A stretch of DNA of 64,000 nt, taken from Norana najaformis. Lineage: Eukaryota > Annelida > Clitellata > Crassiclitellata > Hormogastridae. The stretch lies in NCBI GenBank assembly GCA_964023275.1, contig OZ029913.1, positions 48,301,976 through 48,365,975 of the forward strand, read 5' to 3'. The translations under genes and the position numbers were made by a program. Below, piece after piece: positions 22,020 through 63,208 of the stretch (its first letter is position 1; every line of letters begins with the position of its first letter). Under the pieces are notes generated by a model. The model did not search any database and was not told where the DNA came from. It was given only the letters and a program-made list of their open reading frames with translations.

Positions 22020-22204
22020 ATGCCGCATATTTGTGCGGCTATTAACTGTGGCAACGCAAGTTACAAGAAACTTGGGTTATCGTTTTTCAGATTCCCAAGC
22101 GAAGCTGAACGGTAGGCATTATTGCATTATTTATACTGATTAACCAGAATGATGCAGCAACAAGTAATGATTATTAAATTTGATATTTTGATATTTAGCT
22201 TCAT

Positions 22205-25200
22205 CAAACTGCCACGTCATCTTAGATCACATAATGTACAGTTCAATCATTCTTCTTATTTTCGGTCTACGTTTCATGATCGCCTTCCATATTAGTTGCC
22301 AACCCTTCCACACCCGCTTGCCCTACATTGTTCCTACAGCCAAACATTCTTACTGCGCCCAATTTGGCACAACAACTATGCAGTATGGACGTATGTGTTT
22401 TATTCCTTTATCGTTCTTCCTAACTTCATCTCTCAGGCGACCACCACAGCACCTCACCCGCCATACCATCTTCAACATACTAATCCTGCTTTCCGGGGAC
22501 ATCCACCCAAATCCTGGCCCACTGGACTTTTATTCATGTCCTCCTCCCTCACCTCCTACCTATCCTCCTCCTTCCAGAATTTCTTCCTCCAACATCCTCG
22601 ACAATGCTCAAAATACTGACAACAGCCGCTTCTTACTTTGCACGCTAAATATCCGATCATTACTACATCCTGCACATTCACAAGAAATCAGTGATATAGC
22701 CCTCTCTTCTCACCCGCCTGACATATTTGCCTTATCTGAAACCTGGTTTAATTTAAACACCACTCTTGCTCAATATGAAGACTGTATCCCTCCTGGCTAC
22801 CATCTTTACAGTACACCTCGTCCCTGCAAACCATCTAGCCCTTCTCATAAAAATCCAACTGGAGGTGGTATTGCCTTTCTCACCCGAGAACCTGCCACAG
22901 TTTTAGACTCACCTGGTTACTGTTTCCACTCTTTTGAATGTGCATCAGTTACGCTTAAACTTCCTCACACAAATCTGACTATCTTTAATGTATATCGCCC
23001 TCCATCCTCCTCTTCATATTCAAGTCCTCCATCGGTCTTCTTGAAAGAATTTACCACCCTCCTCTCTACTGCCGCCACTACACCTCATGAATTTCTGATT
23101 ACAGGTGACTTCAATATACATGTCGATAACCCCTCTGACACATTTGCTTCTGAATTCCTCACCCTATTGTCCTCAACTAATCTGGTTCAACATGTCAAAT
23201 TCCCCACCCACATTCACAATCACACACTTGACCTTATTATCACATCATCATTCTCCACTCTATCGCCTGATATATCTTTCTCTTTTGACACGCCATCTGA
23301 TCATTACCCCATCTTTACATATCTTAACATTCTTCCGACACCACGTCCTGATCCTGTCTTTCATTCTTTTCGTCGCATCAGTTCAATAAATATTGAAGCC
23401 TTCATACAAGATATTTCCTGTTCTGACCTCGTGTTAAATCCACCCACCTCCCTGAATGACCTTCTCTCTTCCTATAACACCACTCTTTCCACTATCCTTG
23501 ACAAGCATGCTCCTATTATTACCAAATCCCGTTCTCACTCTAACAATCCTTGGTTCAGTTCCTATCTCCAGGCCTTCAAATCTTTCCGGCGACGCCTTGA
23601 GCGTGCCTATAAACGCACCAGGGATCCTCAACTTCTCTGTGCCCTTAAATCTGCCACAAATAAATACCATCGCCTTCTTACTGCAGCTAAACAAAGATTT
23701 TACTCCTCACTAGTTCGTTCTCGATCCTCTAGCCCTCGCCTTCTCTGGAAAACCATTAACCAGCTCCTCCATCGGAACTCATCTAGCCCACTTCCAAATT
23801 CTCTTCCGTCTTCTTCAACAGCCGACTCGTTCTGTTCTTTCTTTTCGAACAAAATTAGTACCCTCCGTCTCTCTCTTCAATCTCTACTTTCTAAAACCTC
23901 CAACAATCCAGCTGCTGATGCTCCCTCTTCCACATATGACAGCCCACCTTCCCCACCTCGATCCTCATTTTCTGCTTTTCAACCTACATCAGAGACCGAA
24001 ATACTAAATCTGCTAAAATCTCTCCCAAACAAACAGTGTGAACTTGACCCTATACCTACCTCCTTATTGAAAGACTGTGCATCTGTCCTTGTTCCAATTA
24101 TTACCAAAATAGTTAACCTCTCCCTCTCTACTGGAAATTTTCCCCTTCTTTTTAAACACTCTCTTGTTACCCCTCTTCTCAAGAAATCATCTCTCGACAA
24201 GGAAATCCTTTCTAACTACCGGCCTGTTTCTAACCTCACTTTCATCTCCAAATTAACTGAACGGATTGTCCTCTCTCGAATCAATAACTATTTAGCTTCT
24301 AACTCACTCATTAACCTACACCAGTCTGGTTTTACTAAACGCCACTCAACCGAAACTCTGCTGACATCTCTCTACAACAAGCTTGTTTCTGCCATTTCTC
24401 ATCAACAGGTTTCTTGCCTCTGTCTCCTCGATATCTCTGCAGCCTTCGACACCATAGATCACAATATCTTACTCCACCGACTTTCAACCTGGTTTGGTTT
24501 TGCTGACACTGCTCTCCTATGGATACAGTCTTATCTCTCCTCCCGCTCTTTCTCTGTTAAAACTTCGGAAGCCTCTTCTGAGTCATGCCCTCTTACTTGC
24601 GGAGTTCCACAAGGCTCCGTTCTTGGACCTCTTCTGTTTATCCTCTACACTACCCCACTCAGTTCACTCATTAAAGCATCCTCCGTTGACCATCACCTCT
24701 ATGCTGATGACACCCAACTATTCATCTCTTTCTCTCCAAATTGTTTCAGTCAGTCTACAGATCATCTTCTTTGTGTGGTTAAACAAATCTCCTCTTGGAT
24801 GACATCTAATCTCTTATGCCTGAACCCATCTAAAACTGAATTCATACTTATCGGCCTACGTGACCAGCTCAAGAAAATTCCTGACCCCTCTATCTCCCTC
24901 AGCCTGGACTCTGCCTCCACCCACACCTTTAATACTAACTCTTCTGTCCGTAATTTAGGTGTTATTTTCGATCAGAACCTTACTTTTTCTGATCATATCA
25001 CCCATCTTTCCCGCTCTTGCTTTATGCATATCCGCGACCTTCGCAGAATCCGTCCTATGCTTGACTTCAAAACCGCATCGATCATTGCCACATCCATAGT
25101 CCATGCAAAACTTGACTACTGCAATTCACTTTTCCTCAATATTGACACAACCCAGATAAATCGCCTACAAGCTATCCAGAATGCTCTCGCACGTGCTGTC

Positions 25201-25811
25201 ACCAAAACCCCCAAACACCATCACATCACCCCTGTTCTCAAATCACTGCACTGGCTTAAAATACCAGAACGAATAGAGTACAAAGTCTTATCCCTCACCT
25301 ACAACACACTTCAATCCTCCCAACCCTCCTATCTTCGTCAATTATTTACTATCCAACCACTCCGTTCAACCCGCTCCTCATCTGTCCTAACACTTCTTCG
25401 CCCTCCCGTCACCTCATCCTTAAAATTTGGAAATCGCTCGATAGCCATAGCTGCCCCACCCCTTTGGAATAAACTCCCGCCAGAATTGCGACAGTTGTCT
25501 GGTCAATCATACGAACTCACCAACACTTCACCTCTTTCAGTTTCTGCACAGGTCTTTCACTCAAGACTGAAAACACTTCTTTTCCAGAAATCTTATCCTG
25601 ATTCTTCCTCTTCCTCTTATCTCTCTTCTCGCTTCAATTTCAAACAGCATCCACCGTAGCCGTCCGACTGTCTGAGTGCCTGACTCCTGGATCTTGACCC
25701 TTCTGCCTATCGATTTTGTTTTGACTGAGCGCCTGTGAATAAGCTGGTTCCCGCGACTTAGCTTTCGTTGAGCGCTGTAGAAATCACGAGATTACGATTA
25801 CGATTACATCG
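22205..25811 (+). mobile_element. L2-type LINE, near full length, open ORF
   Basis: A 3.6-kb LINE with short 5' and 3' non-coding regions ends in repeated GATTAC/ATTACG units (about 25790-25806). GCTTCAT occurs on both sides (22198-22204 and 25812-25818), a likely short target duplication. It lies in the sense direction inside intron 1 of the THAP9-like pseudogene. A single open frame and a clean tail imply a fairly young insertion. L2-type elements use APE endonuclease nicking and target-primed reverse transcription, and have repetitive tails rather than poly(A). Confidence 0.85.
22234..25659 (+). CDS. LINE polyprotein: APE endonuclease and reverse transcriptase, 1141 aa
   Basis: The protein opens with a hydrophobic segment ending in LLSGDIHPNPGP (GDIHPNPGP at residues 88-96). 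This resembles the ribosome-skipping 2A motif D(V/I)ExNPGP but has His where Glu is canonical. An APE endonuclease follows: TLNIRS, ALSETW, GDFNIH (291-296), SDH (355-357). The reverse transcriptase motifs are NYRPVSNL, DISAAFD (733-739), GVPQGSVLGP (790-799) and YADD (823-826). The C-terminal region carries LHWLKIPERIEYK, as in L2/CR1 elements; no RNase H is seen. No stop or frameshift interrupts it. The first Met at 22234 is taken because it keeps the hydrophobic leader; a start a few codons later is possible. The catalytic residues appear intact, so it may be functional, though expression cannot be judged. Confidence 0.88.
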   Translation: MYSSIILLIFGLRFMIAFHISCQPFHTRLPYIVPTAKHSYCAQFGTTTMQYGRMCFIPLSFFLTSSLRRPPQHLTRHTIFNILILLSGDIHPNPGPLDFYSCPPPSPPTYPPPSRISSSNILDNAQNTDNSRFLLCTLNIRSLLHPAHSQEISDIALSSHPPDIFALSETWFNLNTTLAQYEDCIPPGYHLYSTPRPCKPSSPSHKNPTGGGIAFLTREPATVLDSPGYCFHSFECASVTLKLPHTNLTIFNVYRPPSSSSYSSPPSVFLKEFTTLLSTAATTPHEFLITGDFNIHVDNPSDTFASEFLTLLSSTNLVQHVKFPTHIHNHTLDLIITSSFSTLSPDISFSFDTPSDHYPIFTYLNILPTPRPDPVFHSFRRISSINIEAFIQDISCSDLVLNPPTSLNDLLSSYNTTLSTILDKHAPIITKSRSHSNNPWFSSYLQAFKSFRRRLERAYKRTRDPQLLCALKSATNKYHRLLTAAKQRFYSSLVRSRSSSPRLLWKTINQLLHRNSSSPLPNSLPSSSTADSFCSFFSNKISTLRLSLQSLLSKTSNNPAADAPSSTYDSPPSPPRSSFSAFQPTSETEILNLLKSLPNKQCELDPIPTSLLKDCASVLVPIITKIVNLSLSTGNFPLLFKHSLVTPLLKKSSLDKEILSNYRPVSNLTFISKLTERIVLSRINNYLASNSLINLHQSGFTKRHSTETLLTSLYNKLVSAISHQQVSCLCLLDISAAFDTIDHNILLHRLSTWFGFADTALLWIQSYLSSRSFSVKTSEASSESCPLTCGVPQGSVLGPLLFILYTTPLSSLIKASSVDHHLYADDTQLFISFSPNCFSQSTDHLLCVVKQISSWMTSNLLCLNPSKTEFILIGLRDQLKKIPDPSISLSLDSASTHTFNTNSSVRNLGVIFDQNLTFSDHITHLSRSCFMHIRDLRRIRPMLDFKTASIIATSIVHAKLDYCNSLFLNIDTTQINRLQAIQNALARAVTKTPKHHHITPVLKSLHWLKIPERIEYKVLSLTYNTLQSSQPSYLRQLFTIQPLRSTRSSSVLTLLRPPVTSSLKFGNRSIAIAAPPLWNKLPPELRQLSGQSYELTNTSPLSVSAQVFHSRLKTLLFQKSYPDSSSSSYLSSRFNFKQHPP

Positions 25812-26174: not shown

Positions 26175-29100
26175 TAACTTTGTTCCACCAATTGCAGTTT
26201 TAAGTATATTGTACTAAGCAGATTAGTTAGATACGAAAAGTAAGGTCTTTGCTATTAATTAGGGTGCGTAGCGAATTCCCGGAACGAATTTCGACCTGAT
26301 CTGCGAAATCGATTTTCCTAGTGCGACCCGGATTCCCGAAAATTAAGAAGCTAACGTTTGTGTGGCTGAATTAGGACTTTTTCCTGAAAGTCAGTGTCGA
26401 AATTTCAAACGTTAAAATACAATCCAGTTTCGAGTTTAACATTATCAAGTGAGATGGAATCAGAAAGGAACCAAGTCAAGCAAGAATGTTCTCAAAATAC
26501 TTCTATTGCTTGCAAAATCAAGTAAACAGAGTGTTAAATTTCAAACTTTAAAATCAAGCTTTTTGGGAATATTTGATCAGCAGATTAGATGGTCCAAGAT
26601 AGTTTTTGGGACCGCTTGCTATTTTCAGCGCTTTTGGGGATTTAGGTTTCAGGGATTCGGGATGACCCCATTAATTATAACTAACCCATGTGAGGCTGAA
26701 GATCAAAAGATCCAACACGTCAACAGCTTTGCATATAATGAACTGAACATTTCTTGCAGCTCAGCTTATATGAACTTAACATGACTGCTATTAAGTTTCT
26801 TAAAGTTTTTGTTAACATGCTATGTTAGGTGCAAGAAGTGGGTGATAAATACCAGTCGTTCAGACCTCCATGGGAAGACCCCAGAAGAACTGTGCAAGAA
26901 TTTTGTATTGTGTGGTGCCCACTTTGAGGAGAGCCAGTTCACAGATATTTTACGAAACAGACTCAACTGGAATGCAATACCTACTTTATTTGATGTGAGT
27001 CATTTAGTTTAATGTTATTTATATATTTACAAGATGCTGTTCATTAACTTGGTAATTGATGTTACTGTTGCATGAGTGTTCATTGAGTGTTCACTCTTTT
27101 CATATTAAAAACGTGCTCCAAAGGGTTCCCCACACCGGTATTATTATTATTAATGTGATTGCTATTGTTATTACTATTATAATTCTTTTTATTATCTTCA
27201 TCATCATCATTGACAGTTGTGATGTACACACAAAGTTGCAAGTTCTCAAAATGCATTGTGCAATAGACCTAAGTATTGACATAGGGCCGTCATTATTCTT
27301 TCAGAGGTTGCAGCAAAATTGTTCTGCATATGCTAGAAGAGGAAGCAACATTGTTAGTTGTGAGACCTGCATAAAAAGATTTTTGAGCAGACCCTAACTT
27401 TTTAGAATGTTAATATATTCATAATAGCTTGCATGGTTATTTTTTTATTTAAGCACAAGTGGAAAGGTTATTTGGTCTGCCATGATTCCATCAGAATGAG
27501 AATTTAAGATTTTATTGTTAATCTCTATGGCTCCGCAACAGATTTTGCTTTAATTTGCATAAACCTTAATTGTTTTAACACAATATTAACTTCAAGTTTT
27601 ATATATTTTTTAGTGTTTTGTGCTTTTATGCTGTTGCAGGTTTCTAAATGCTCATCCGACAACAATACAATCAAGATGACAGACAAGATAGTGGAAGTAA
27701 CTCCAACAATCTCTTTGTGGGTTCCAAATCACTCATCCAATGATACTAGCAAGACGACTGATGAGACAGTGGAAGTGAATCCAACTATTTTGCCGAGACC
27801 TGAAGCTTGTATTGTAGCAGAAATATCTACATCTACCAATACAGAGTTACATAAGGGAGCGAAAATTAAACGCAGACTGCCAGATACTCCACGCTAAATA
27901 AAGCTGAGGCAGACATTGCATAAACTGCAGTCAAAACACTGGAGACTGGAGCAGAAAGTTAAGAAGTTAAGACCGAAAATGTCTAAAAAACTGCCCGAGT
28001 CTGCAATGCCCTCTGGAGCAATTGATCTCATTGTAAATAATGCAAAGCAATATTTAACACCTTTACAACTGTCATTGTTTCGTTCACAGATGTTGGCTAG
28101 CCAGAAACAGGAAAAAGGTTATAGGTGGTCAGTTAAGGAGAAATTATTTGGGTTGCAGTTGCATTTTAAGAGTGCGGCAGCGTACAGGTTTCTATCACAG
28201 CACTTAGCTTTACCATCCAAGTCAACTTTACGTAGGTTTGTAGGGGCAGCTGTTGGCAGGATTGATAGCGGGTTTACCACTATTATGTTTAAGTTGCTGA
28301 AATTACGCATTAGGACTTTGCCATTATGTGAACGGCAGTGTGCACTTATATTTGATGAAATGTCATTGAAGTCGCAATTAACATATGATAAGAATTTAGA
28401 CCGAGTCATAGGTTACACAGATGATGGAAAAATTACAACACATGCATTAGTATTTATGGTTAGGGGTCTATGCAGTAAATGGAAGCAAGCAATTGCCTTT
28501 TTCTTCACACACAACACAGTAGCAAGTTCAAAACTTTCAGAGCTGATAATAGAATGCATCATTAGAGTCCATGAAAGTGGTTTGTTTGTTCGATGCATTG
28601 TGTGTGATCAAGGTGCCACTAACGTAGCAGGTGTGAAGAATCTTGGCTGTACTGCAGCATTACCAAATTTCACTGTTGGCAGTTCAGAACATGTTGTACA
28701 CGTTATATATGATGTTCCACATTTGTTGAAAAATGTGCGCAACAACTTAATTAAGCATGATATTGAAGTTGATGGTTCATTGGCTAGCTGGAAGCACATT
28801 GAAGAATTTTATCGTTTTGATAAAATGTGTCCCATACGTCTTGCACCAAGATTAGCAGAGCGCCATCTTGAAGTTTCACAAGTTTCAAAAATGCGTGTCC
28901 GTCTTGCTGCTCAGGTTTTAAGTCATTCTGTTGCAGCTGGTTTGCAAGTGTGGGTGTTAACAAAGGAGTTGCCTCCTGAAGCTCTTCAAACCGCTGATTT
29001 TGTTGAGAAAATGGATATTCTCTTTGATATCCTTAATTCTCGTACACGGCATAGTGATAAGCCTGCTAGATGGGCCCTGTGTAAAAAAATGAACATTTGA

Positions 29101-30114
29101 AACAGCTTCTTATCTTTGAGGAATGGATGGGTAAGTGGCAATTTATGGGAGCTCGCACTCAGTCGTAATTTAAATGTCGGCAAGGGTTGCAAATGTCAAT
29201 CAATAGCATCCACTCTCTTGCCTGTAGGCTCCTAGATCAGGGTTTTGAGTACATTTGCACTGCCCGTTTCAATCAAGATTGTCTTGAAAATTTTTTTGCA
29301 AGTCTCAGAAGTAAAAATGGATGGAATGAAAATCCTACTCCAGCACAGTTCTGTAGTGCTTTTAGAAGTGCGATTGTTCTGTCAAGTTTAGACTGTAGCA
29401 CAAGTGGTAAAAATTGTATTGATGATGATGATTTTGTCCTTCTAAAGCATTCAGATCTTGTAGTGGCCCCTCCTGTATTGTCAGAGCCTGTTCCAAGTAC
29501 ATCCTCAGAAATTAGTGATGAATTACTTTATTTGGACGACGAAATTTGGTCTGAGATGTCCAGTGAAATTCTGAACAGTGACATATGCTTTGATCAGGGT
29601 ATTGTTGAAAGTTTTACGGAAGCTGAAGAGTCACTTATCAGTTATTTGGCTGGCTGGCTTGCTCGCAAATGTGGAATTTGTTCTCAGTGTCAGGATGTTA
29701 GGTGACCATTCATACACTTGTCGTCCGCAAGATTACTTTATAAAAGTAAAACGATTTTCAAATATGTCCTCCAGCGGGCTGGTTGAGCCTTGTGACGAAC
29801 TTTTTGAAGCTGTACACGCAATGGAACATTTGTTCCGCTTGCATTTTAATCAGCTGCTTTGACAGCCCAATATTGTCTCTAAACTCTTTAAAACAATTCA
29901 CCCTCAGTGCAATTTCCAGTTTTTGTTCATTCGACATCCAGAGCATGCTTTATACATTTCAGAGAAACTGACAAAACTTTATGTCGTGATGAGAATATTT
30001 TATGCTGTGAAGTTTGCTAACAGAAACCTCTCACAAGCTAGTAAAGTGACAAATATGAAAAGTGTTCGCCGATGTAGCATGAAAAGAAAAATGCAAAAAG
30101 TCTTGCATATGTAA

Positions 30115-31970: not shown

Positions 31971-32778
31971 AGTCACAAAACATATAGACTGGATTTCTCT
32001 GTGCCTCAAATTATCAATCTTTTATTTCACCAAACAATGGCAGCACAAAAAAAACACTTGAAAAAGAAAAAACCTCAAAATGATAATGACAGCATACCTG
32101 CCTGTGAATTTTATACTACTTACAGCATCAGCAAAAATTCAATCAATTGTGAATACTGAGAAAATCACAAAGAAAACAGACAGCGGCATTATCAATAAAC
32201 TAACATTTCTGGAAATACCACAGTCTTCTGGTAAACCAAGTCTTTAATGCTAGGTTCCTGTAGGATGTGTAAGTAAGTTTCTTATAGCCTCAACATTTCA
32301 GATAAGGCAGTGCTGTAAGTGTAGGCCTACTGCAGAGTTCAGCTCTGGTTAAGAAAAACAGCTTTCATTCCATAAATATTTTCCAGGTACTTGACCTGTG
32401 GCTAAAAGTCGTCTACACCGCAGTATGTTACAAATAAATGTTCTTTTTTGAAATATATGCCATCTTTATCACCACAACATTTATTTGTGAAATTCAGCGG
32501 CGAACTCGTCTTTTACACGTAGCATTCACGGAAAAGCAACTAGCACCGAAGGTTTCTCAACCCATACCCGATAATGAACTGTGAATTTTTCCCTTAATAT
32601 ATACCAATATCTGCAAAATATATAAAATCGGAAATAAAATACTGCTAATATAAATTCTATGTGATTTCTATATTCTCATATCTTACGCATAAAGCTACTG
32701 TTCAGCGACGGTCCGACAATTCGCTATATAAACGATTCGTTGTTTTCCCTTATCTAGACCAGAAACGTATAAAAACCT

Positions 32779-32818
<40 letters not shown>
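32779..32818. repeat. (ATC)n microsatellite tail of the RTE LINE
   Basis: A pure ATC/ATG-type trinucleotide run at the 3' end of the minus-strand RTE insertion, the usual tail type of that clade. It encodes a spurious poly-His stretch on the + strand. Confidence 0.85.
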
Positions 32819-33585
32819 AGAACCATGGGCTCAGCGCCCGTAGGTGTCCGCTGCCGTCTTCACCAAGTTCTTCCATCGCTCCCTGTCCATTGCCGTGTGA
32901 CTCAGCTCTTGGAGTGATGCTCCTCCCCACCCGATGATGTCATCCAGCCATTCCCTGTGTGGCCTTCCTCTTCGATTTGTCCCCTCCATCCTGCCAAACA
33001 TTAGTGTTTTTATTTTCCGATCATCCTTCATTCTGCAGATATGTCCAAAAAGTTTCAGCTTTCTCTTGATCAGGTTCTGCATGATGGTTTCCTTAGGGCG
33101 TATTCGTTTGTGACCTTTTGTGTCCAGCCTATTCCCAAAATCTTTCGATAGCACTTTCTTTCGAAAGACAGCATCCTTTGCTCTATATCCTTTGTTACCA
33201 CCCAAGACTCGCATCCGTAGAGCACTCCGCTGAAGATGCACGTCTTTAGTACTTTCACCTTAGTTTCCAATTTTATCGCTTTACTTCTCCAGATTTTATC
33301 CATAGCCTTTAGTGTTGCTGCAGCCCTTGCTATCCTTGTCCATACTTCCTTTCTGCTGTCTAGGTCATACGTCGTGTTGCTCCCTAGATATGTGAACTTT
33401 TCCACATTCTCCAGTTGGTTTCCATCAATGACTAGTTTCTTTCTGTGGTCCTTTTCTCCGAATACTAGAGTTTTGGTTTTTTCGAAGTTCATGGTTAACC
33501 CATATCTCTTTCCTTCTTCATTCAGAGCTTGCGCTGTTGTTTCCAGTCGTTCCTCGTCTCTTTCGATCAAGTCAATGTCATCTGC
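32783..33585 (-). mobile_element. RTE-clade LINE, 5' truncated, in the foldback left arm
   Basis: The minus strand encodes the end of an RTE (BovB-like) reverse transcriptase: YGLTMNFEKTKTLVFGE, KFTYLGSNTTYDLDSRKEV, SGVLYGCESWV, then after one frameshift near 33090 LIKRKLKLFGHICRM, RRGRPHREWLDDI and a stop at about 32831. The 3' tail is (ATG)n. AAAAACCTATCA is duplicated at 32771-32782 and 33586-33597, a clean 12-bp target duplication that is part of the foldback terminus. The insertion is therefore younger than the foldback element. It is dead, being 5' truncated and frameshifted. Confidence 0.88.
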
Positions 33586-33850
33586 AAAAACCTATCAACA
33601 GATATAAATACATTTCCGTTCCGGATTCCGGGTTTCTGTGCTGCCAACTAGCGAAATAGTAGTGCAATATTTGGCATCTCAAATTTCAAAGAGGATTAAA
33701 CGATGAAAATGTTCATGAATCAATAGGAACTGCACAATTTGTTAACGAAAGGCGCATATTAACGAAAATTCGCACAAAGACCGTATATTGAACAGAATTG
33801 TGCGATACACGTACAAACCCATAAACTGCCGATCGAATTATCGCATTCAA

Positions 33851-35340
33851 ATGGGTCTCATCAAATGGATAAATTTGCACTCTGGCAGCCGCACTCCTCG
33901 TATACAGATTCAAATACAGATTCGCCAAAATCCGGAAAATCAGCATATACAAATACAGATTCGCCTATAGAAGCAGAATGCACAATTCAGGCGATGATGG
34001 TCATGAGGGTACATAAAGAACCCATACGTGGTCCATATGGGTCTCATCAAATGGATAAATTTGCACTCTGGCAGCCGCACTCCTCGTATACAGATTCAAA
34101 TACAGATTCGCCAAAATCCGGAAAATCAGCATATACAAATACCGATTCGCCTATAGAAGCAGAATGCACGATTCAGGCGAGGATGGTCATGAGGGTACAT
34201 AAAGAACCCATACGTGGTCCATAGGGGTCTCATCAAATGGATAAATTTGCACTCTGGCAGCCGCACTCCTCGTATACAGATTCAAATACAGATTCGCCAA
34301 AATCCGGAAAATCAGCATATACAAATACAGATTCGCCTATAGAAGCAGAATGCACAATTCAGGCGATGATGGTCATGAGGGTACATAAAGAACCCATACT
34401 TGGTCCACATGGGTCTCATCAAATGGATAAATTTGCACTCTGGCAGCCGCACTCCTCGGATACAGATTCAAATACAGATTCGCCAAAATCCGGAAAATCA
34501 GCATATACAAATACAGATTCGCCTATAGAAGCAGAATGCACAATTCAGGCGAGGATGGTCATGAGGGTACATAAATAACCCATACGTGGTCCATATGGGT
34601 CTCATCAAATGGATAAATTTGCACTCTGGCAGCCGCACTCCTCGTATACAGATTCAAATACAGATTCGCCAAAATCCGGAAAATCAGCATATACAAATAC
34701 AGATTCGCCTATAGAAGCAGAATGCACAATTCAGGCGATGATGGTCATGAGGGTACATAAAGAACCCATACTTGGTCCATATGGGTCTCATCAAATGGAT
34801 AAATTTGCACTCTGGCAGCCGCACTCCTCGTATACAGATTCAAATACAGATTCGCCAAAATCCGGAAAATCAGCATATACAAATACAGATTCGCCTATAG
34901 AAGCAGAATGCACAATTCAGGCCAGGATGGTCATGAGGGTACATAAATAACCCATACGTGGTCCATATGGGTCTCATCAGATGGATAAATTTGCACTCTG
35001 GCAGCCGCACTCCTCGTATACAGATTCAAATACAGATTCGCCAAAATCCGGAAAATCAGCATATACAAATACAGATTCGCCTATAGAAGCAGAATGCACA
35101 ATTCAGGCCAGGATGGACATGAGGATCCATAAGGGAACTGTACTTGGTCCATATGGATCTCAAAAAATGAACCTAGTTGCACTCTGGCAGTCACACTCCT
35201 TGAATACAGATTCAAATACAGATTCGCGAAATTCCGGAAATTCTGCATAAACAAATACAGATTCGCCTATATCGAGAAAATGCACGACTCAGGCAAGTGT
35301 AGTCATATAGGGTCCATAAGGAACCCATACATGGCCCTTA
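33851..35340. repeat. 186-bp tandem repeat array, left arm (about 8 units)
   Basis: Units start at 33865, 34051, 34237, 34423, 34609, 34795 and 34981 (counted at ATGGATAAATTTGC), with a diverged eighth at 35167. The period is exactly 186 bp. Each unit holds several ATACAGATTC/AAATACAGATTCG submotifs. Inner units are nearly identical; the unit nearest the centre is diverged. 186 is divisible by three and the unit has an open frame, so long frames appear without implying a protein. Confidence 0.93.
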
Positions 35341-36049
35341 AGGGTCTCATGAAATGCGTATTGACCTGCTGTAGTTCAAGTACTTCCCAGCACTGCCTAG
35401 TCGCCTCTAAGAGTGAGAAGAAAGACGTCCTGCTTGTGTCGGCTGCTATGTCAGCAAAGTCGCTGCTCGGGTTGGACGTTGACCGGATAGAGCGGACATC
35501 CGTCATCCTATAGTACTATCTGCGTCATGTTTTTTCGCCCTTGACATTCACGCTCGGAGCCGAGAAATGCTTTCCTTCCCTTAATCTTCGTATTCGTAAG
35601 TTTGTGTATATATAGTGTTACATTTCAGCTAGTTTAAAATGTATGTATTTCGAGTATATATATATATATACATATACATACCTACACACTCGTGTTAGTG
35701 CGTAATTGAGGAGTCTGCTTTAGTTGTAGGCTACACAGGATTTAAATTATGCATATAAGTCTGGCTATAAGTAAGACTCGTAGCGATATCTATTTGAATA
35801 GTTGAGGTCTTAGGTGTCCTATTTGAATAATGGACTTCAATTTTTGCAGTTTGTGTATGCAGATATATTAGAATACTTTAAATGTATATATCTGCGGTAT
35901 TTAATATCTGCCGGAGATAGTATACTTTGTGCTTTATTTGGTACGCAATTTTGTGGTTTATGTAGGCTTACATGCTGGAAAACTGCACTCATTGGAATTT
36001 AGTATTCAAGTATTTTGAAAAAAAGTTTATTGTATGTGAATTTAGCTCG

Positions 36050-36440
36050 GTACCCTGGTGGCGTGGGTGAATTGGAGCTGGTTGGTTTGATGACACGGGG
36101 CCGTTATAGAGCTTGTCGACTGTGTATGAGGGATGGAATCCGAATCCAGTCAAGTATTTCTGAGTGGTGATTCTGCGAGTGGAGAAGTCGACCGGAATAG
36201 GCCAGCGCCAGATGCCTGAGCTTCTACTACTCCCGTAGGACTGTGGTAGTCGCGAGAGTTTATTTTGGTGTTTCTGTGTATAGGATGGCTTGCAGTGTTT
36301 TTGATAAGGCAGTTATTGGTTATTCTGTTGAAGGAAGAGTCTTTGTAAATAAAATCTGTAAATAAACATTGTAAATATAACAACTGAAATTAGAAATTGG
36401 CTTTTTCTTGAAACTTAGTTAAACGGATTCGCGACACACC
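36050..36440. mobile_element. LTR-like segment in the foldback centre
   Basis: It resembles, in opposite orientation, the LTR-like part of the fossil Gypsy-like element at about 5545-5870; matching parts include GATGGAATCC, AGTCAAGT and ACATTGTAAATA. It is read as a fossil solo LTR or LTR fragment of a related family. Full borders were not determined. No internal retroelement genes are seen beside it. Confidence 0.45.
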
Positions 36441-37219
36441 CGAACACGCTTACGCTATGGGCAGGTTCTGGCGCTCGAACTTGCCGACGTCGGACACCTT
36501 TACAGGGAATTCGATCCCGGAGAAATTCAGCTCTCTTAGATGGGCACTGCATTTGATTGAACGTTGGGAGTTGATTGAATGTTACTGCTGTCGTGAAACA
36601 GCCGATGCTGAGCCGTACCTAGATTCAGCGCCTCTGCATTTCTGAGTCTCCACCCTGACCCTTCATCTGTGTACTCTTCTCGGCGTCTGAGCATCTGCGC
36701 CTTCGCTGCCTCGAGTGCATCTTCGATGTCACCCGCATTCTATAATGGACAAGTGTCTGAGTAAGACACAAGTGTCTGAGTGTCTGACACAATCAGCATG
36801 CGATCGATGTTGTAACACGGCGCTGTTCAAGTATTTGTTGCTATGTCATATAGCGCCTTTGCATTGCATCGGATACAAAGTAAGGTCAAATACAGAGAAG
36901 CGCTACAGTGTGGAATGAACGCGAGCCCAGGACAGTTCTGCATCGTGGCTCAGCCAAAAGACCCGTACCTGAAGATCGTAGACTGCGAGGAGGGATGCAA
37001 AGAGAGACTTTTCATTTAAGGTAGTTAGGAGTGCTAATGGCATGAATTTTATAGGTAAGACCGGATACCTTAAATTTTATCCGGATTTTCGGAGGAATTC
37101 AATGGAGCTCGTTTACTATAGCTAAGGAATTTGTTCGAGAAAGTGCACGCAGCACCACACGAGCCATGAAATTTTGGATGAACTGAAGCCTTTGAGTTCA
37201 AGATCTGAAATACCTCGTT

Positions 37220-37690
37220 GGCATAATCAAGGCGAGATCAGATCAGACAACAAGTTACAGTTTGTGCCATGTTTTTGGTAAAAAGCAGACCTGATGTGAC
37301 GTAATGCCCAGATATGACATAAACAAGATTTACATAAGTTTCTAAAGTGGGGTCGAAATGTGAGTTTGCTGTCCAAAATTACACCAAAAATTCTGCTTAA
37401 TAGCGGAACAGTGCCAGCTAGGCCAATGCTGGAATGTGAAGGGAGAAATCGCAGACGTTGGCATGAGCCAAACATGATCACCTCAGATTTATCTGGTTTT
37501 CTGGCCAAACCATTGAAACAGAACCATTCATGAACAGAACAGAGAAATTCTCCAAGTTTCACCTTGACTGACTGATCAGTGGGTGAAAGAGCAATGCAAA
37601 GCCGATTGTCATCAGCGCACTGCTATACCTTCGCTCCAAAGTCGTTGGCTATGCGGGTACCTGGTGCAGTGGATTGTAAATAATAAAGGT
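37220..37690 (-). mobile_element. Jockey/CR1-like LINE fragment in the foldback centre
   Basis: The minus strand reads CADDNRLCIALSPTDQSVKV (the reverse-transcriptase catalytic box, with Cys for Tyr), then VHEWFCFNGLARKPDKSEVI, and after a break FGVILDSKLTFRPHF and HIWALRHIRSAF. This is a short, 5'- and 3'-truncated piece with at least one frameshift and no tail, so it was probably carried in as part of the captured centre. Confidence 0.7.
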
Positions 37691-37739
37691 CTAAGGACAG
37701 ATACTTGTGGGCACCACAAGTGCAGAAAGAATGATCAGA

Positions 37740-38195
37740 GCATTTTTCCGAAATTCCTCGAATCTGTATTTGTATCTGTATACGAGGAGTGCAGCTGCAA
37801 GACTGCAAATTTATCCATTTGATGAAACCCCTATGGACCACGTATGGGTTCTTTATGTACCCTCATGACCATCCTGGCCTGAATTGTGCATTCTGCTTCT
37901 ATAGGCGAATCTGTATTTGTATATGCTGATTTTCCGGATTTTGGCGAATCTGTATTTGAATCTGTACACGAGGAGTGCAGCTGCCAGAGTGCAAATTTAT
38001 CCATTTGATGAGACCCATATGGACCACGTATGGGTTCTTTATGTACCCTCATGACCATCATCGCCTGAATTGTGCATTCTGCTTCTATAGGCGAATCTGT
38101 ATTTGTATATGCTGATTTTCCGGATTTTGGCGAATCTGTATTTGAATCTGTATACGAGGAGTGCGGCTGCCAGAGTGCAAATTTATCCATTTGAT
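37740..38195. repeat. 186-bp tandem repeat array, right arm (about 2.4 units)
   Basis: These are inverted copies of the left-arm unit, with unit starts (minus strand) at 38190 and 38004 and a partial unit from 37818. The unequal count between arms (about 8 against about 2.4) shows that copy number changes quickly. Confidence 0.92.
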
Positions 38196-38586
38196 GAGAC
38201 CCATTTGAATGCGATAATTCGATCGGCAGTTTATGGGTTTGTACGTGTATCCCACAATTCTGTTCAATATACGGTCTTTGTGCGAATTTTCGTTAATATG
38301 CGCCTTTTGTTAACAAATTGTGCAGTTCCTATTGATTCATGAACATTTTCATCGTTTAATCCTCTTTGAAATTTGAGATGCCAAATATTGCACTACTATT
38401 TCGCTAGTTGGCAGCACAGAAACCCGGAATCCGGAACGGAAATGTATTTATATCTGTTGATAGGTTTTTATACGTCAAATCGACCGTCCGGTAGAAAATC
38501 TGAGGATGCTCCGATTTAAGAAACTCGTGCAAAGCATATGATTTCAGTAGGACCCAAAAAACTTAGTTTCGAACAGGCAATTAGCA

Positions 38587-42574: not shown

Positions 42575-43936
42575 CAGGGTGGCGCAAAAAAAACCGGACT
42601 AGTGACATTTGGGTTTGGCATTTAATATAACATTGAATGAACTGTAAAATTTCAGAATGTTTTGAATGCGTAAGAAATTTCAGTCAAAGTGATGTTCAGT
42701 GTGTCCTCCGTTTGCTGCGATAACCAATGATAATCGCTTGTGAAACTGTCCAATAGCCCGGTTGATAGTGTCCTCGCTTATTTCGTCCCAGCATGCGGTC
42801 AGAACTTCTTTCAAATGTTCAATATCTCGAATTCTCTGCCTGTAGACAAGCTGTTGAAGCACTCCCCAGATCGAATAGTCTACGGGATTCAAATCCGGAC
42901 TGTTCGGTGGCCAATTTTCTGGTTCAATAAAGTCCGGAACGTGAGCAGTGAGAAAAGCAACTGTTTTTCGTGAACGATGAGCAGGTGCTTCATCCTGCTG
43001 AAAAGTGAAATTGTCACCAGAGTGAGCTATAATGTCTGGCAGTAATCCTTGATGTAGGACGACGTCACAGTAATAGGAACTGTTAACTTTTGCTCCTCAT
43101 TCAACGAAAACTAATGACGATTTACCCAGCTGCGACACGGCAACCGAAACCATGATGCTCTGTGAGAAGTGCTTCCGACCTTTCAGCAAGCGTTCTGAAG
43201 GAATGTCTCGTTTCACAGCTACGTTGGCGTACACTCGATCATTCTGTGAATTTGTTGGTGTTTGGACTGTGAACATCTTTTCATCCGTAAACCATGTTCT
43301 GGCCAATTTAGCTACGGTTAGTCGTCGAGACAGACGTTTGCAGGCGGCAAGCCGTTTCACTCTGTCGGCGTGTGTTAGCAGCTGCACCTCACGTCGCCGA
43401 AACACTTTAAGCTGTAAGTCAAATTTAGCAATACGCTGAACAGTCCTACGAGATATACCAGTTTGACGTTCAATTTCTCTCGGAGCCTTGCTTGTTCCCG
43501 GTTGGCCTTCTTGACTTGAAATCAGTTCATCGACCTTCGCTACATTATCAGCCGTACGAACCGATCGCGGTCGACCGCTACCCTGTTTTCTTTTAGTGTC
43601 GCCAGTTTCGTCAATCTTTTTAATCAAATCATTCAACGTACTTCGCTTCCATTGTTGTTGTGGGAATTCTCTAATCATTCGAAGCGAACCCCGTCCTTTT
43701 TCGAGTCTTAACGCACGAATTAACGATTTATCATCACTTGTCAACAGACGCTTCGCCATGACGGTACAAAGAATAGTTAACGCCATAGAATATATGACGT
43801 CATTTTTATTTTATGTAGCGCTCTCATTTTTCTGTGTCATTTCTGTCTAATGATAGTTTTAAGGCGATAATTACTTTGATTCTTCAAGCGATGCAATTGG
43901 AAAAACTAATAGTCCGGTTTTTTTTGCGCCACCCTG
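42575..43936 (-). mobile_element. Tc1/mariner-superfamily element, DD37D type
   Basis: Inverted terminal repeats start CAGGGTGGCGCAAAAAAAAC; TA flanks both ends (42573-42574 and 43937-43938). The 1362-bp element carries one transposase frame with a single stop. The inverted ends differ only slightly, indicating modest age. Non-autonomous copies could be mobilised by an intact relative, but this copy's gene is interrupted. Confidence 0.92.
42680..43786 (-). pseudogene. Mariner-like (DD37D) transposase, one in-frame stop
   Basis: Reading leftward from 43786 gives MALTILCTVMAKRLLTSDDK; the Met at 43759 (MAKRLL) is an alternative start. The paired-like helix-turn-helix DNA-binding region follows, with a GRPR motif at residues 71-74. 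The catalytic Asps are WFTDEKMF (D168), FQQDEAPAH (D265) and NPVDYSIWG (D303), giving 37 residues between the second and third, the DD37D (maT-like) arrangement. A TGA at 43097-43099 (codon 230) is the only interruption; the frame then stays open to 42680, about 367 residues in all, near the usual length. Cut-and-paste transposition at TA is expected for the family. With a full set of catalytic residues and one stop, it was probably active recently. Confidence 0.9.
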
Positions 43937-60584: not shown

Positions 60585-63208
60585 CACTGGCCAACAGAAA
60601 AATTTTTTTTTCTTGTTGCCTTCGGTTTTAGACCTGTTCTTGGGGTAATTTTGGGCGCTGATTCAGAAAATGTCATTGGATTGAGTGCATCAGGTCTAGT
60701 TTCTGAGATATCGTCGATTTTGTAAAGAAAACCCAGTCCACTCTTTAAACGATGTCTTTGGCAAAACTAAAATGTCATAATAAGCTTTATTTATGGCTAA
60801 TTATAATTCTTGCTGATTCATATAATGCCTACATCCTTATAATGTAAAATCAGCATATCTTGCCGCGTGCTGAGATATTGCTGATTCAACGAAATAACTA
60901 TTCCGTAGCCTACCGCTTACTCAGCACTAAATTCATGGCCTCATTTAGAATTTATTTGTGCTTATACAGCGTTTCATGGTTTCGAACTATGTAAATAGAT
61001 TATGCTGAAGTCAGCATTTATAGCCTATATAAACCGCCTCCTGAAAGCTAGAGCAGCCGCAGTCGTCTTAGGGCATATTAAGAGTTGGTCGCAAGAACAA
61101 TCTGTGAATGTGAGCATTAAATAACTACATGTTCTTACTATTTTTTAGGTTAGTCATTTAATTCCTCAGATGCGAACATCCTTAAGGTTATGGCTACTTC
61201 CAGACGGAGCTGCATTAACCATCCAGATATATTCTGCTACATTTGTGGGGAATACACACTAAAAGCAAACAGGAAACCGATTTCTGAGTTTGTAAAAAGA
61301 GCATATGTAGGTTATTTTGGTGTCAAACTTGGAGATCAAGATAAGCAATGGGCTCCTCATGCAGTATGCAAAACTTGTATTGAACAATTGCGCCACTGGA
61401 CAATTGGAAAGAGAAGCTGCCTGAAATTTGGTGTACCGATGGTTTGGAGGGAACAGATAAACCACTTCGACGACTGTTACTTTTGTATGGTTAATATCAT
61501 AGGCATCAATCGAAATAATCGTCACAAGTTGTCTTACCCTGATATACCTTCAGCCAGGAGACCTGTTCCGCATTCGGATATTGTACCAGTTCCACCTTTT
61601 TGCGAACTACCTCAGCTCTCAGACGATGAGACTTGCATGTCCAATATCGGACAAGATGACGAAAGTGAAGAAAGTGGGGGCAGTGACAGTGATTTCCAAT
61701 CAACTTCACACAGTGAACGTTTTGACCAAAAAGAGTTGAGTGATCTGATCAGGGACTTAAATCTTTCCAAAGAGTCCTCTGAATTGCTTGCGTCCAGACT
61801 AAAGGAAAAGAATGCACTTCAGCCTGGAACGAAAATTACAATTTATAGAAACAGAGAAAAGGATTTGCTGCCATTCTTTACCGAAGACAACAACCTAGTA
61901 TTCTGTAATGACATCAGCAACTTATTGAAGAAAATTGGTCTGTCAGATTACAGCCCAGATGAGTGGCGTCTTTTTATCGACAGTTCAAAACGTAGTCTGA
62001 AATGTGTGCTTTTAAATAACGGCAACAAATTTGGTTCTATTCCAATCGGTCACTCCACCAGGATGAAAGAAGAGTACAATGCCATCTCTTTAGTACTGGA
62101 AAAGATAAAATACAAAGAACATCAATGGGTAATTTGTGTAGACTTGAAGATGGTAAATTTCCTCCTTGGTCAACAAAGTGGCTACACAAAGTATCCCTGC
62201 TTTTTGTGTCTTTGGGACAGTAGAGCCAAGCATGAACATTGGACAAGAAAAGATTGGCCTTCGAGGAAAGACATGGTGGTTGGAGCTCAAAATGTAATCA
62301 AGGAATCTTTGGTGGCACGAGATAGGATCATACTGCCACCACTACATATAAAGCTAGGCCTGATGAAACAATTTGTCAGGGCTTTGAATAAAGAAGGTTC
62401 ATGCTTCGAATACATAGTACACAAGTTACCAGGAATTACAATGGAAAAATTGAAGGCTGGAATCTTTGATGGTCCACAGATCAGGCAACTTATGAATGAC
62501 CCACTTTTCATACCATCAGTGAATGAAATCGAATCTTGTGCCTGGTCTTCCTTTGTTCTTGTAACTAAAAATTTTCTTGGCAACAAGAAGGCAGACAATT
62601 ATGCACAACTAGTAGAGGATATGCTTCTTCATTTCAACAAGCTTGGCTGCAACATGAGCATTAAAGTCCATTATCTCCACAGTCACTTAGATCGCTTTCC
62701 AGAGAATCTTGGTGACTTCAGCGAAGAGCAAGGTGAAAGATTTCACCAAGACATCAAAACAATGGAAAATCGATATCAAGGAAGATGGGATGCACACATG
62801 ATGGCAGACTATTGCTGGAATATTATGCGCGATTGTTCCGGCAGATGCCACACTCGGAAATCGTACAAAAGGAGCTTCTTCGGTGTCAAATGACTTGAAA
62901 TTTTTATAACAAACTTGTTCTGTTTGGTATCATATAAGTACAGTTTCAGGTACTACCATTTTCTTTTAAGTATTTGTATTATTATGTTTATTTAGTGTAT
63001 CACATAATAAATTGAGCACTACATAATTATAGCTATAGCCTTATGTTTTATGGGCGAGCAGAGGCAAGGACTGGTATATGGCATAATGTTCTATATCTCG
63101 AAAACTAGACCTGCTGGGGAAAACTGGTGCCTTTTCTGGAATCAGCAGGTCAAATATACCCAGAAACAGTTCTAACATTTGAGGCAACAAATTATGTGTT
63201 GGCCAGTG
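60585..63208 (+). mobile_element. Complete-looking DNA transposon, CACTG ends, TAA duplication
   Basis: Terminal repeats CACTGGCCAACA are inverted at 60585 and 63208 and extend as imperfect inverted repeats over about 125 bp, including a shared TTGTTGCCT and AGGTCTAGTTTTCGAGATAT-like block. TAA flanks both ends (60582-60584 and 63209-63211). CACTG termini with a 3-bp duplication fit the CMC (EnSpm/CACTA) group; this is inference. It holds one open 567-codon gene. It is probably recently active, and sits in the sense direction inside the PRXL2C intron after exon 4. Confidence 0.82.
61190..62893 (+). CDS. Putative transposase, 567 aa, uninterrupted
   Basis: The N-terminus has three CxxC pairs (C16/C19, C60/C63, C96/C99) forming a probable zinc-binding DNA-recognition region. 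An acidic low-complexity linker follows (DDESEESGGSDSD, about 160-175), then a large conserved domain with RLFIDSSKRSLK (D264), WVICVDLKMVNFLLG (D318), CFLCLWDSR (C337, C340, D343), LPPLHIKLGLMKQFV and EEQGERFHQD (E512-D521). D264, D318 and E512 or E516 are plausible DDE residues, with the CxxC-WDSR a likely metal-binding insertion; this is inference. Very similar repetitive proteins occur widely in animal genomes, usually left uncharacterised (from memory). Start: first Met after a stop-rich leader, near ATGGCTACTTCC. The terminal repeats on both sides argue strongly for transposase function. A host gene is the less likely alternative. Confidence 0.82.
   Translation: MATSRRSCINHPDIFCYICGEYTLKANRKPISEFVKRAYVGYFGVKLGDQDKQWAPHAVCKTCIEQLRHWTIGKRSCLKFGVPMVWREQINHFDDCYFCMVNIIGINRNNRHKLSYPDIPSARRPVPHSDIVPVPPFCELPQLSDDETCMSNIGQDDESEESGGSDSDFQSTSHSERFDQKELSDLIRDLNLSKESSELLASRLKEKNALQPGTKITIYRNREKDLLPFFTEDNNLVFCNDISNLLKKIGLSDYSPDEWRLFIDSSKRSLKCVLLNNGNKFGSIPIGHSTRMKEEYNAISLVLEKIKYKEHQWVICVDLKMVNFLLGQQSGYTKYPCFLCLWDSRAKHEHWTRKDWPSRKDMVVGAQNVIKESLVARDRIILPPLHIKLGLMKQFVRALNKEGSCFEYIVHKLPGITMEKLKAGIFDGPQIRQLMNDPLFIPSVNEIESCAWSSFVLVTKNFLGNKKADNYAQLVEDMLLHFNKLGCNMSIKVHYLHSHLDRFPENLGDFSEEQGERFHQDIKTMENRYQGRWDAHMMADYCWNIMRDCSGRCHTRKSYKRSFFGVK

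Follow-up and report, generated by a model that had tools for sequence, protein, structure and literature searches.

Several described DNA transposons combine long inverted arms with internal tandem repeats, and they are the closest known parallels to the element reported here: a foldback copy at 32765-38475 of a 64,000-nucleotide stretch of the annelid Norana najaformis (hereafter the window; assembly GCA_964023275.1, contig OZ029913.1, positions 48,301,976-48,365,975). This copy belongs to a dispersed mobile family and is itself probably the product of an exchange between two family members. Tm1: this element of root-knot nematodes, of the Phantom subclass of Mutator/Foldback elements (PMC3169594), resembles the present family in its composite arms, variable number of tandem units, two asymmetric terminal motifs, non-coding forms and mostly 9-bp target duplications with no clear target consensus. 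It differs in that its units are about 14 bp, as against 186 bp here, its asymmetric motif spans 7 bp, whereas here most of the outer arm is unlike, and it has a coding form, none being found in the paired copies here. Tetris: this foldback of Drosophila virilis (PMC4079207), compared by description only, shares long arms, ~220-bp internal tandem units, a non-coding middle and target duplications of 8-10 bp, the length by which it was assigned to Mutator; two unlike ends are not seen in the accessible part of its description. Galileo: this Drosophila element of the P superfamily (PMC3573991; PMC2775673; PMC3688188) likewise has long arms. One of its groups carries ~210-bp tandem units, some copies are chimeric and lack matching duplications, two copies have the middle in opposite orientations, and ectopic exchange gives rise to inversions. 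It is set apart by a P-type transposase and by 7-bp duplications with the consensus GTAGTAC, against 9 bp here. Rehavkus: this element (PMC6446971) shares the 9-bp target duplication but has one reading frame, a PHD finger and inverted repeats of 26-400 bp, whereas no coding sequence was seen here.

The main features of the family are all found among Tm1, Tetris and Galileo taken together, and it is the same kind of element. As far as could be checked, it joins the Tm1/Tetris/Galileo-like foldbacks and is new by sequence and structure. Membership in Tm1 itself was considered and rejected: the 14-bp motif C units and the CGGTTAA and CCTACCC ends of the published Tm1 account are absent, their places being taken by 186-bp units and the ends ACGCGGCG and ACGTATAA (by eye). 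No description of this family was recognised in the accessible portions of the literature searched, which is no proof that it is unpublished.

Distribution and mobility of the family

The genome searched comprises 608 Mb in 17 contigs, with the window at C1:48301976-48365975. Searching it with the outer arm of the window copy gave 187 candidates, the best 40 of which were scored as matches, the window's own two arms among them. All 20 other copies that were fetched carry the outer end of the window copy (end B) on one side and a different outer sequence (end A) on the other; the A terminus is within 2 mismatches in 19 of them, the exception (L043) having altered outermost A bases. The two ends read ACGCGGCG and ACGTATAA by eye, and their outer arms, of about 215 bp (A) and about 265 bp (B), are mostly unlike, apart from about 85 bp at the tips that resemble each other imperfectly. 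An ordinary copy thus has the order: end A, 186-bp units, a centre of ~3.0 kb, inverted units and end B. At up to 1 mismatch the terminal pattern of B has 94 genome matches and that of A 126, with 0 for either in a backwards control; set against this control, the 94 matches show that the pattern is not a matter of chance. Each of the 17 contigs has both end types, and the list of ends used below holds all 94 B matches and 100 of the 126 A matches (26 A ends left out). Further terminal variants of the form ACGR....AAACCTATCAACA gave 0 matches in the genome search, and two end patterns had 0 exact matches in viral contigs. The units might repeat the terminal motif and so offer additional sites to a transposase; in eight tests of this idea with shuffles, the A tip resembles the unit weakly (4 of 500 shuffles equally high) and the inner A arm strongly (0 of 500 as high), the latter likeness probably marking a piece of a unit; nothing clear emerged for the B tip and the inner B arm (22 and 315 of 500 shuffles, plus strand).

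Exact 9-bp target duplications flank 15 of the 19 fetched A/B copies; among the remainder L037 has one mismatch, L047 an irregular duplication, and L040 and L049 none. In 342 control comparisons that paired the flanks of different copies, no pair had fewer than 3 mismatches in 9. Beyond the 19-copy count, L043 has GTTAATATG beside both ends and a copy on C5 has CATATCAAC at both ends. When 16 target 9-mers are aligned, no single base is present in more than 9 of the 16 at any position. When the flanks of each copy are joined, those of L041 align without a gap over the junction to a dispersed repeat, an empty-site-like match, and those of L047 do likewise apart from a one-base irregularity close to the junction; for the remaining 17 copies the joined flanks have no spanning match in the genome sequence searched. 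The family is a dispersed, mobile foldback DNA transposon with 9-bp target duplications, and displays the hallmarks of its class: long inverted arms, internal tandem repeats, a middle of variable size, and dispersed copies with target-site duplication. An earlier note on this stretch, made from its letters alone, had proposed such a mobile family, and the genome-wide arm, the different flanks, the 9-bp duplications and the empty-site-like match bear it out; its forecast of copies with the same termini and different centres failed, as the 20 fetched copies have unlike ends and one common centre.

Two variants of the ends were also encountered. A second subfamily, 0.9-8.3 kb long, has B ends that read CAACGG and A ends that are 89-92% like an A end on C4 described below (C13:18677063-18685353; C14:20870417-20871291; C3:17543867-17548260; C3:14743959-14746868; C1:46566077-46569110). 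At C9:7542859-7550601 eight B ends lie on one strand in a regular array with a period of 2554 bp, paired 59 bp apart; here end B is now part of a tandem repeat, recalling the satellite arrays reported for Tetris.

Centres, arrays and recombination within copies

The centre is ~3.0 kb long in 16 of the 20 other fetched copies, while the remaining 4 have a deletion form of ~0.59 kb; the full-length centres are 96.4-99.9% identical in alignment. The longest open stretch in the fetched copies, flanks included, is 221 amino acids. Relative to A and B, 9 of the 16 full-length A/B copies have a forward centre and 7 a reversed one, and all four short-centre copies have it reversed; the tree of centres requires at least 5 orientation switches, 3-4 of which are forced by well-supported branches. 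A diverged A-proximal unit adjoins A in 8/9 forward and 5/7 reversed copies, and a diverged centre-side unit is on the side following the centre, again in 8/9 and 5/7, and never on the other side. These positions place the crossovers within the arrays. A comparison of 246 of the 281 units (diverged and partial units dropped) gave a mean unit divergence of 0.050 to the copy's own opposite arm versus 0.063 between copies; in 17 of 21 copies neither comparison is as close as the own opposite arm, and copy-private unit variants are found in both arms in 9 of 21. This pattern shows that the arms of a copy, whose arrays are homologous and inverted, recombine with each other, which flips the centre and spreads unit variants from arm to arm. 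Arrays presumably also recombine between copies at different places.

The window copy and its two like ends

Facing ends within 16 kb of each other form 69 pairs among the matches listed (195 ends as input, the split left end of the window copy having been added manually; 58 ends had no partner): there are 67 A/B pairs, two of them with a B end in common, 1 A/A pair and 1 B/B pair, the window copy. Its symmetry is hence a peculiarity of this copy. Its parts are as follows:

32765..38475, no strand: entire B/B foldback copy, nested retrotransposon included (from termini, inverted arms and end pairing)
32756..32764, plus: left flanking 9-mer AGACCAGAA, unlike the right 9-mer, hence no target duplication
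32765..32781, plus: outermost bases of left end B (ACGTATAAAAACCTATC), severed by the retrotransposon insertion
about 32782..33585, minus: fragment of a retrotransposon lacking long terminal repeats (non-LTR), 5'-truncated, with an (ATC)n tail and the 11-bp repeat AAAAACCTATC on each side; partial RVT_1 match
33586..33847, plus: remainder of the left outer arm, end type B
33848..35356, plus: left array, about 8.1 units of 186 bp
35357..37743, no strand: family centre, here 2.4 kb (~3.0 kb in 16/20 other copies)
37227-37622, minus: decayed reverse-transcriptase piece of a retrotransposon, inside the centre
37744..38207, minus: right array, about 2.4 units of 186 bp
38208..38475, minus: right outer arm, end type B
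38476..38484, plus: right flanking 9-mer CAAATCGAC

The terminus ACGTATAAAAACCTATC is present in inverted orientation at 32765 and 38475, and the earlier note had placed it there correctly to the base. The near-identical arms that it described are an inverted match of 741 nt at 97% (33571-34311 and 37744-38484), and its about 8 and about 2.4 tandem units of 186 bp were measured as 8.1 (33851-35356) and 2.4 (37759-38204). At the left end its terminus held good, but it had not separated the nested retrotransposon between the AAAAACCTATC copies, whose RVT_1 match (minus strand) is partial, with E 1.5e-05, below the curated cut-off. What it had taken for a unique centre of unrelated fragments is the conserved family module, minus about 463 and 86 bp relative to copy L031. 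The window copy is without coding capacity of its own. The decayed reverse-transcriptase piece within its centre is 36% identical over 121 aligned positions to a retrotransposon at 22192-25656 of the window. The latter is a non-LTR retrotransposon without internal stops: a 1155-amino-acid open frame (22192-25659, plus strand) with endonuclease and reverse transcriptase domains.

Origin of the window copy

We consider the window copy to be the product of an ectopic exchange that was later homogenised, with a probability of roughly 0.7. Exchange within the arrays of two copies would have joined two B halves, by deletion, inversion or translocation; arm-to-arm conversion would afterwards have made both halves alike, and the retrotransposon would then have inserted into the left end. 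We propose that the two like ends without a target duplication stem from the exchange, and the private bases shared by both B arms from the later conversion. These bases are absent from 28 other aligned B ends, and for the one tested genome-wide the exact 28-base pattern occurs, in 608 Mb, only in the window's two arms. Conversion between the arms, suggested in the earlier note, is in keeping with this pattern and with the arm-to-arm sharing of units. Also counted for an exchange are L040 and L049, the A/B copies without a target duplication. When the fetched flanks were compared for possible exchange partners, the A flank of one copy and the B flank of another came within 2 mismatches in a single case, L041/L029, which has 2.

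A number of observations weigh against this account. No reciprocal A/A partner was found, whether as an A/A pair or by searching A ends for the window's 9-mers. The sole A/A pair (C11:3681535-3687335), checked at both ends, has its own 23-bp direct repeat and not the window's 9-mers; no A end has either 9-mer at 0-1 mismatch; the single A-end match at 2 mismatches is the ordinary C5 copy with its own target duplication; and the other 9-mer has no A-end match at up to 2 mismatches. This absence is only mild counter-evidence, because the reciprocal product would not survive a deletion-type exchange. The shared private bases would also fit the copying of one B arm to the other side of the same element. 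In the wider family, 4 of 21 copies (L033, L040, L042 and L043) do not have their own opposite arm as the closer one. Orientation is not clustered on the centre tree beyond shuffled labels (shuffle mean 5.9; 166 of 500 as low), and the count of flips hence rests on the tree being right despite conversion. The 20 fetched copies, being the top matches to the window's arm, are biased to young or close relatives. Furthermore, the MULE-like or P-like transposase that the earlier note had looked for in a copy's centre did not appear: none of the 68 genome matches to the MULE transposase (PF10551), and none of the best 150 of 328 candidates scored for P-like domains, is inside a paired copy.

One alternative is the copying of one arm within a single element. 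By this account a break near A was repaired by inverted copying of the B arm, either through conversion or as a break-induced process, and deletion of the A side took the target duplication with it. The private bases, common to both B arms, absent from the 28 other ends and in one case tested genome-wide, suit it as they suit an exchange, as does the arm-to-arm sharing in 9 of 21 copies. Copying beyond the end, however, should bring in right-flank sequence, and the inverted match goes no further than the region of the terminus; the left junction is, moreover, exactly at ACGT, without a target duplication. We hold such a repair to be unlikely. Less probable again is an error of long-read assembly by which two different copies were joined in their arrays, making the B/B copy an artefact: near-identical 186-bp arrays would be hard to assemble and the B/B type is unique among the 69 pairs, but the private bases common to both arms speak against a chance join, as does the size of the copy, only about 5.7 kb in a 64-Mb contig. 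A plain local inverted duplication with no mobile element, the outcome that the earlier note tied to an arm occurring only here, has practically no standing: the arm is dispersed genome-wide with differing flanks, both end types are on all 17 contigs, the copies read have unrelated flanks and target duplications, and nothing was found in its favour.

Beyond ectopic exchange as such, a wider reading would have the B/B copy mark the breakpoint of a real chromosome rearrangement, be it an inversion, a translocation or a large deletion, that arose from recombination between the arrays of two copies, and the family form a natural flip-and-rearrange system in which unlike ends mark every exchange. 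This we advance tentatively, at somewhat less than even odds.

Candidate driver transposases

The 9-bp duplication and the resemblance to Tm1 and Tetris suggest that the family would move by cut-and-paste, with a MULE-type (Mutator-like) transposase supplied in trans. The duplication lies within the 8-11-bp range of MULE elements, Phantom included (PMC6446971), and, given the close parallel with Tm1 and Tetris, the driver is presumably of the MULE type. Of the 68 PF10551 matches, one, on C4, lies 8.4 kb inwards of an A end that has no partner.

A P-superfamily (THAP9-like) transposase of the kind found in Galileo could take the place of MULE, and several loci point that way. One P-like piece has 98 matches in 51 loci, 73-100% identical; three of these loci lie inwards of unpaired A ends, at distances of 2.8, 3.1 and 7.1 kb. 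When ends up to 10 kb away in either direction are counted, 5 end-gene pairs (4 loci) result, as against a circular-shift mean of 0.35, and 2 of 2000 shifts gave as many. At the C4 locus 186-bp units follow an authentic A end, which belongs to an older type and shows about 84-87% identity to the fetched copies nearest to it. Between the C3 and C4 gene pieces there are 4 base differences and one gap in 245 aligned columns. These three A-end cases may, however, be nested insertions or duplicates of one another, and the 9 P-like loci whose open frames reach 850 amino acids or more all lie over 30 kb from any A or B end among the matches listed. The P element makes an 8-bp target duplication and Galileo one of 7 bp; the 9 bp seen in 15 of 19 copies falls outside the 7-8 bp of the superfamily. 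On balance we doubt a P-type driver. Solved structures gave the P-like piece weak matches only (Mucolipin-2, E 0.15; P element transposase, E 0.5).

The window has a P-superfamily (TNP-like) transposase gene of its own at 27898-29705 (plus strand, two frames), about 3-5 kb outside the foldback. Its identity to the P-like pieces close to A ends is about 40%, which indicates a different subfamily.

Other features of the window

Two adjoining frames at 42680-43810 (minus strand) have, by eye, the look of a Tc1/mariner-type transposase, the upstream one having only a weak Pfam HTH match. A 579-amino-acid open frame at 61154-62893 (plus strand) has only a weak zf-AD match.

Significance

Galileo and other long-armed elements have been shown to drive inversions (PMC2775673). 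Where both ends of an element are alike, such exchanges would be hard to see. In the present family the two ends, A and B, are largely unlike and the centre has a readable orientation, which lets past flips and exchanges be traced copy by copy: arm-mediated recombination can thereby be counted within one genome assembly, and the window copy is a candidate breakpoint.

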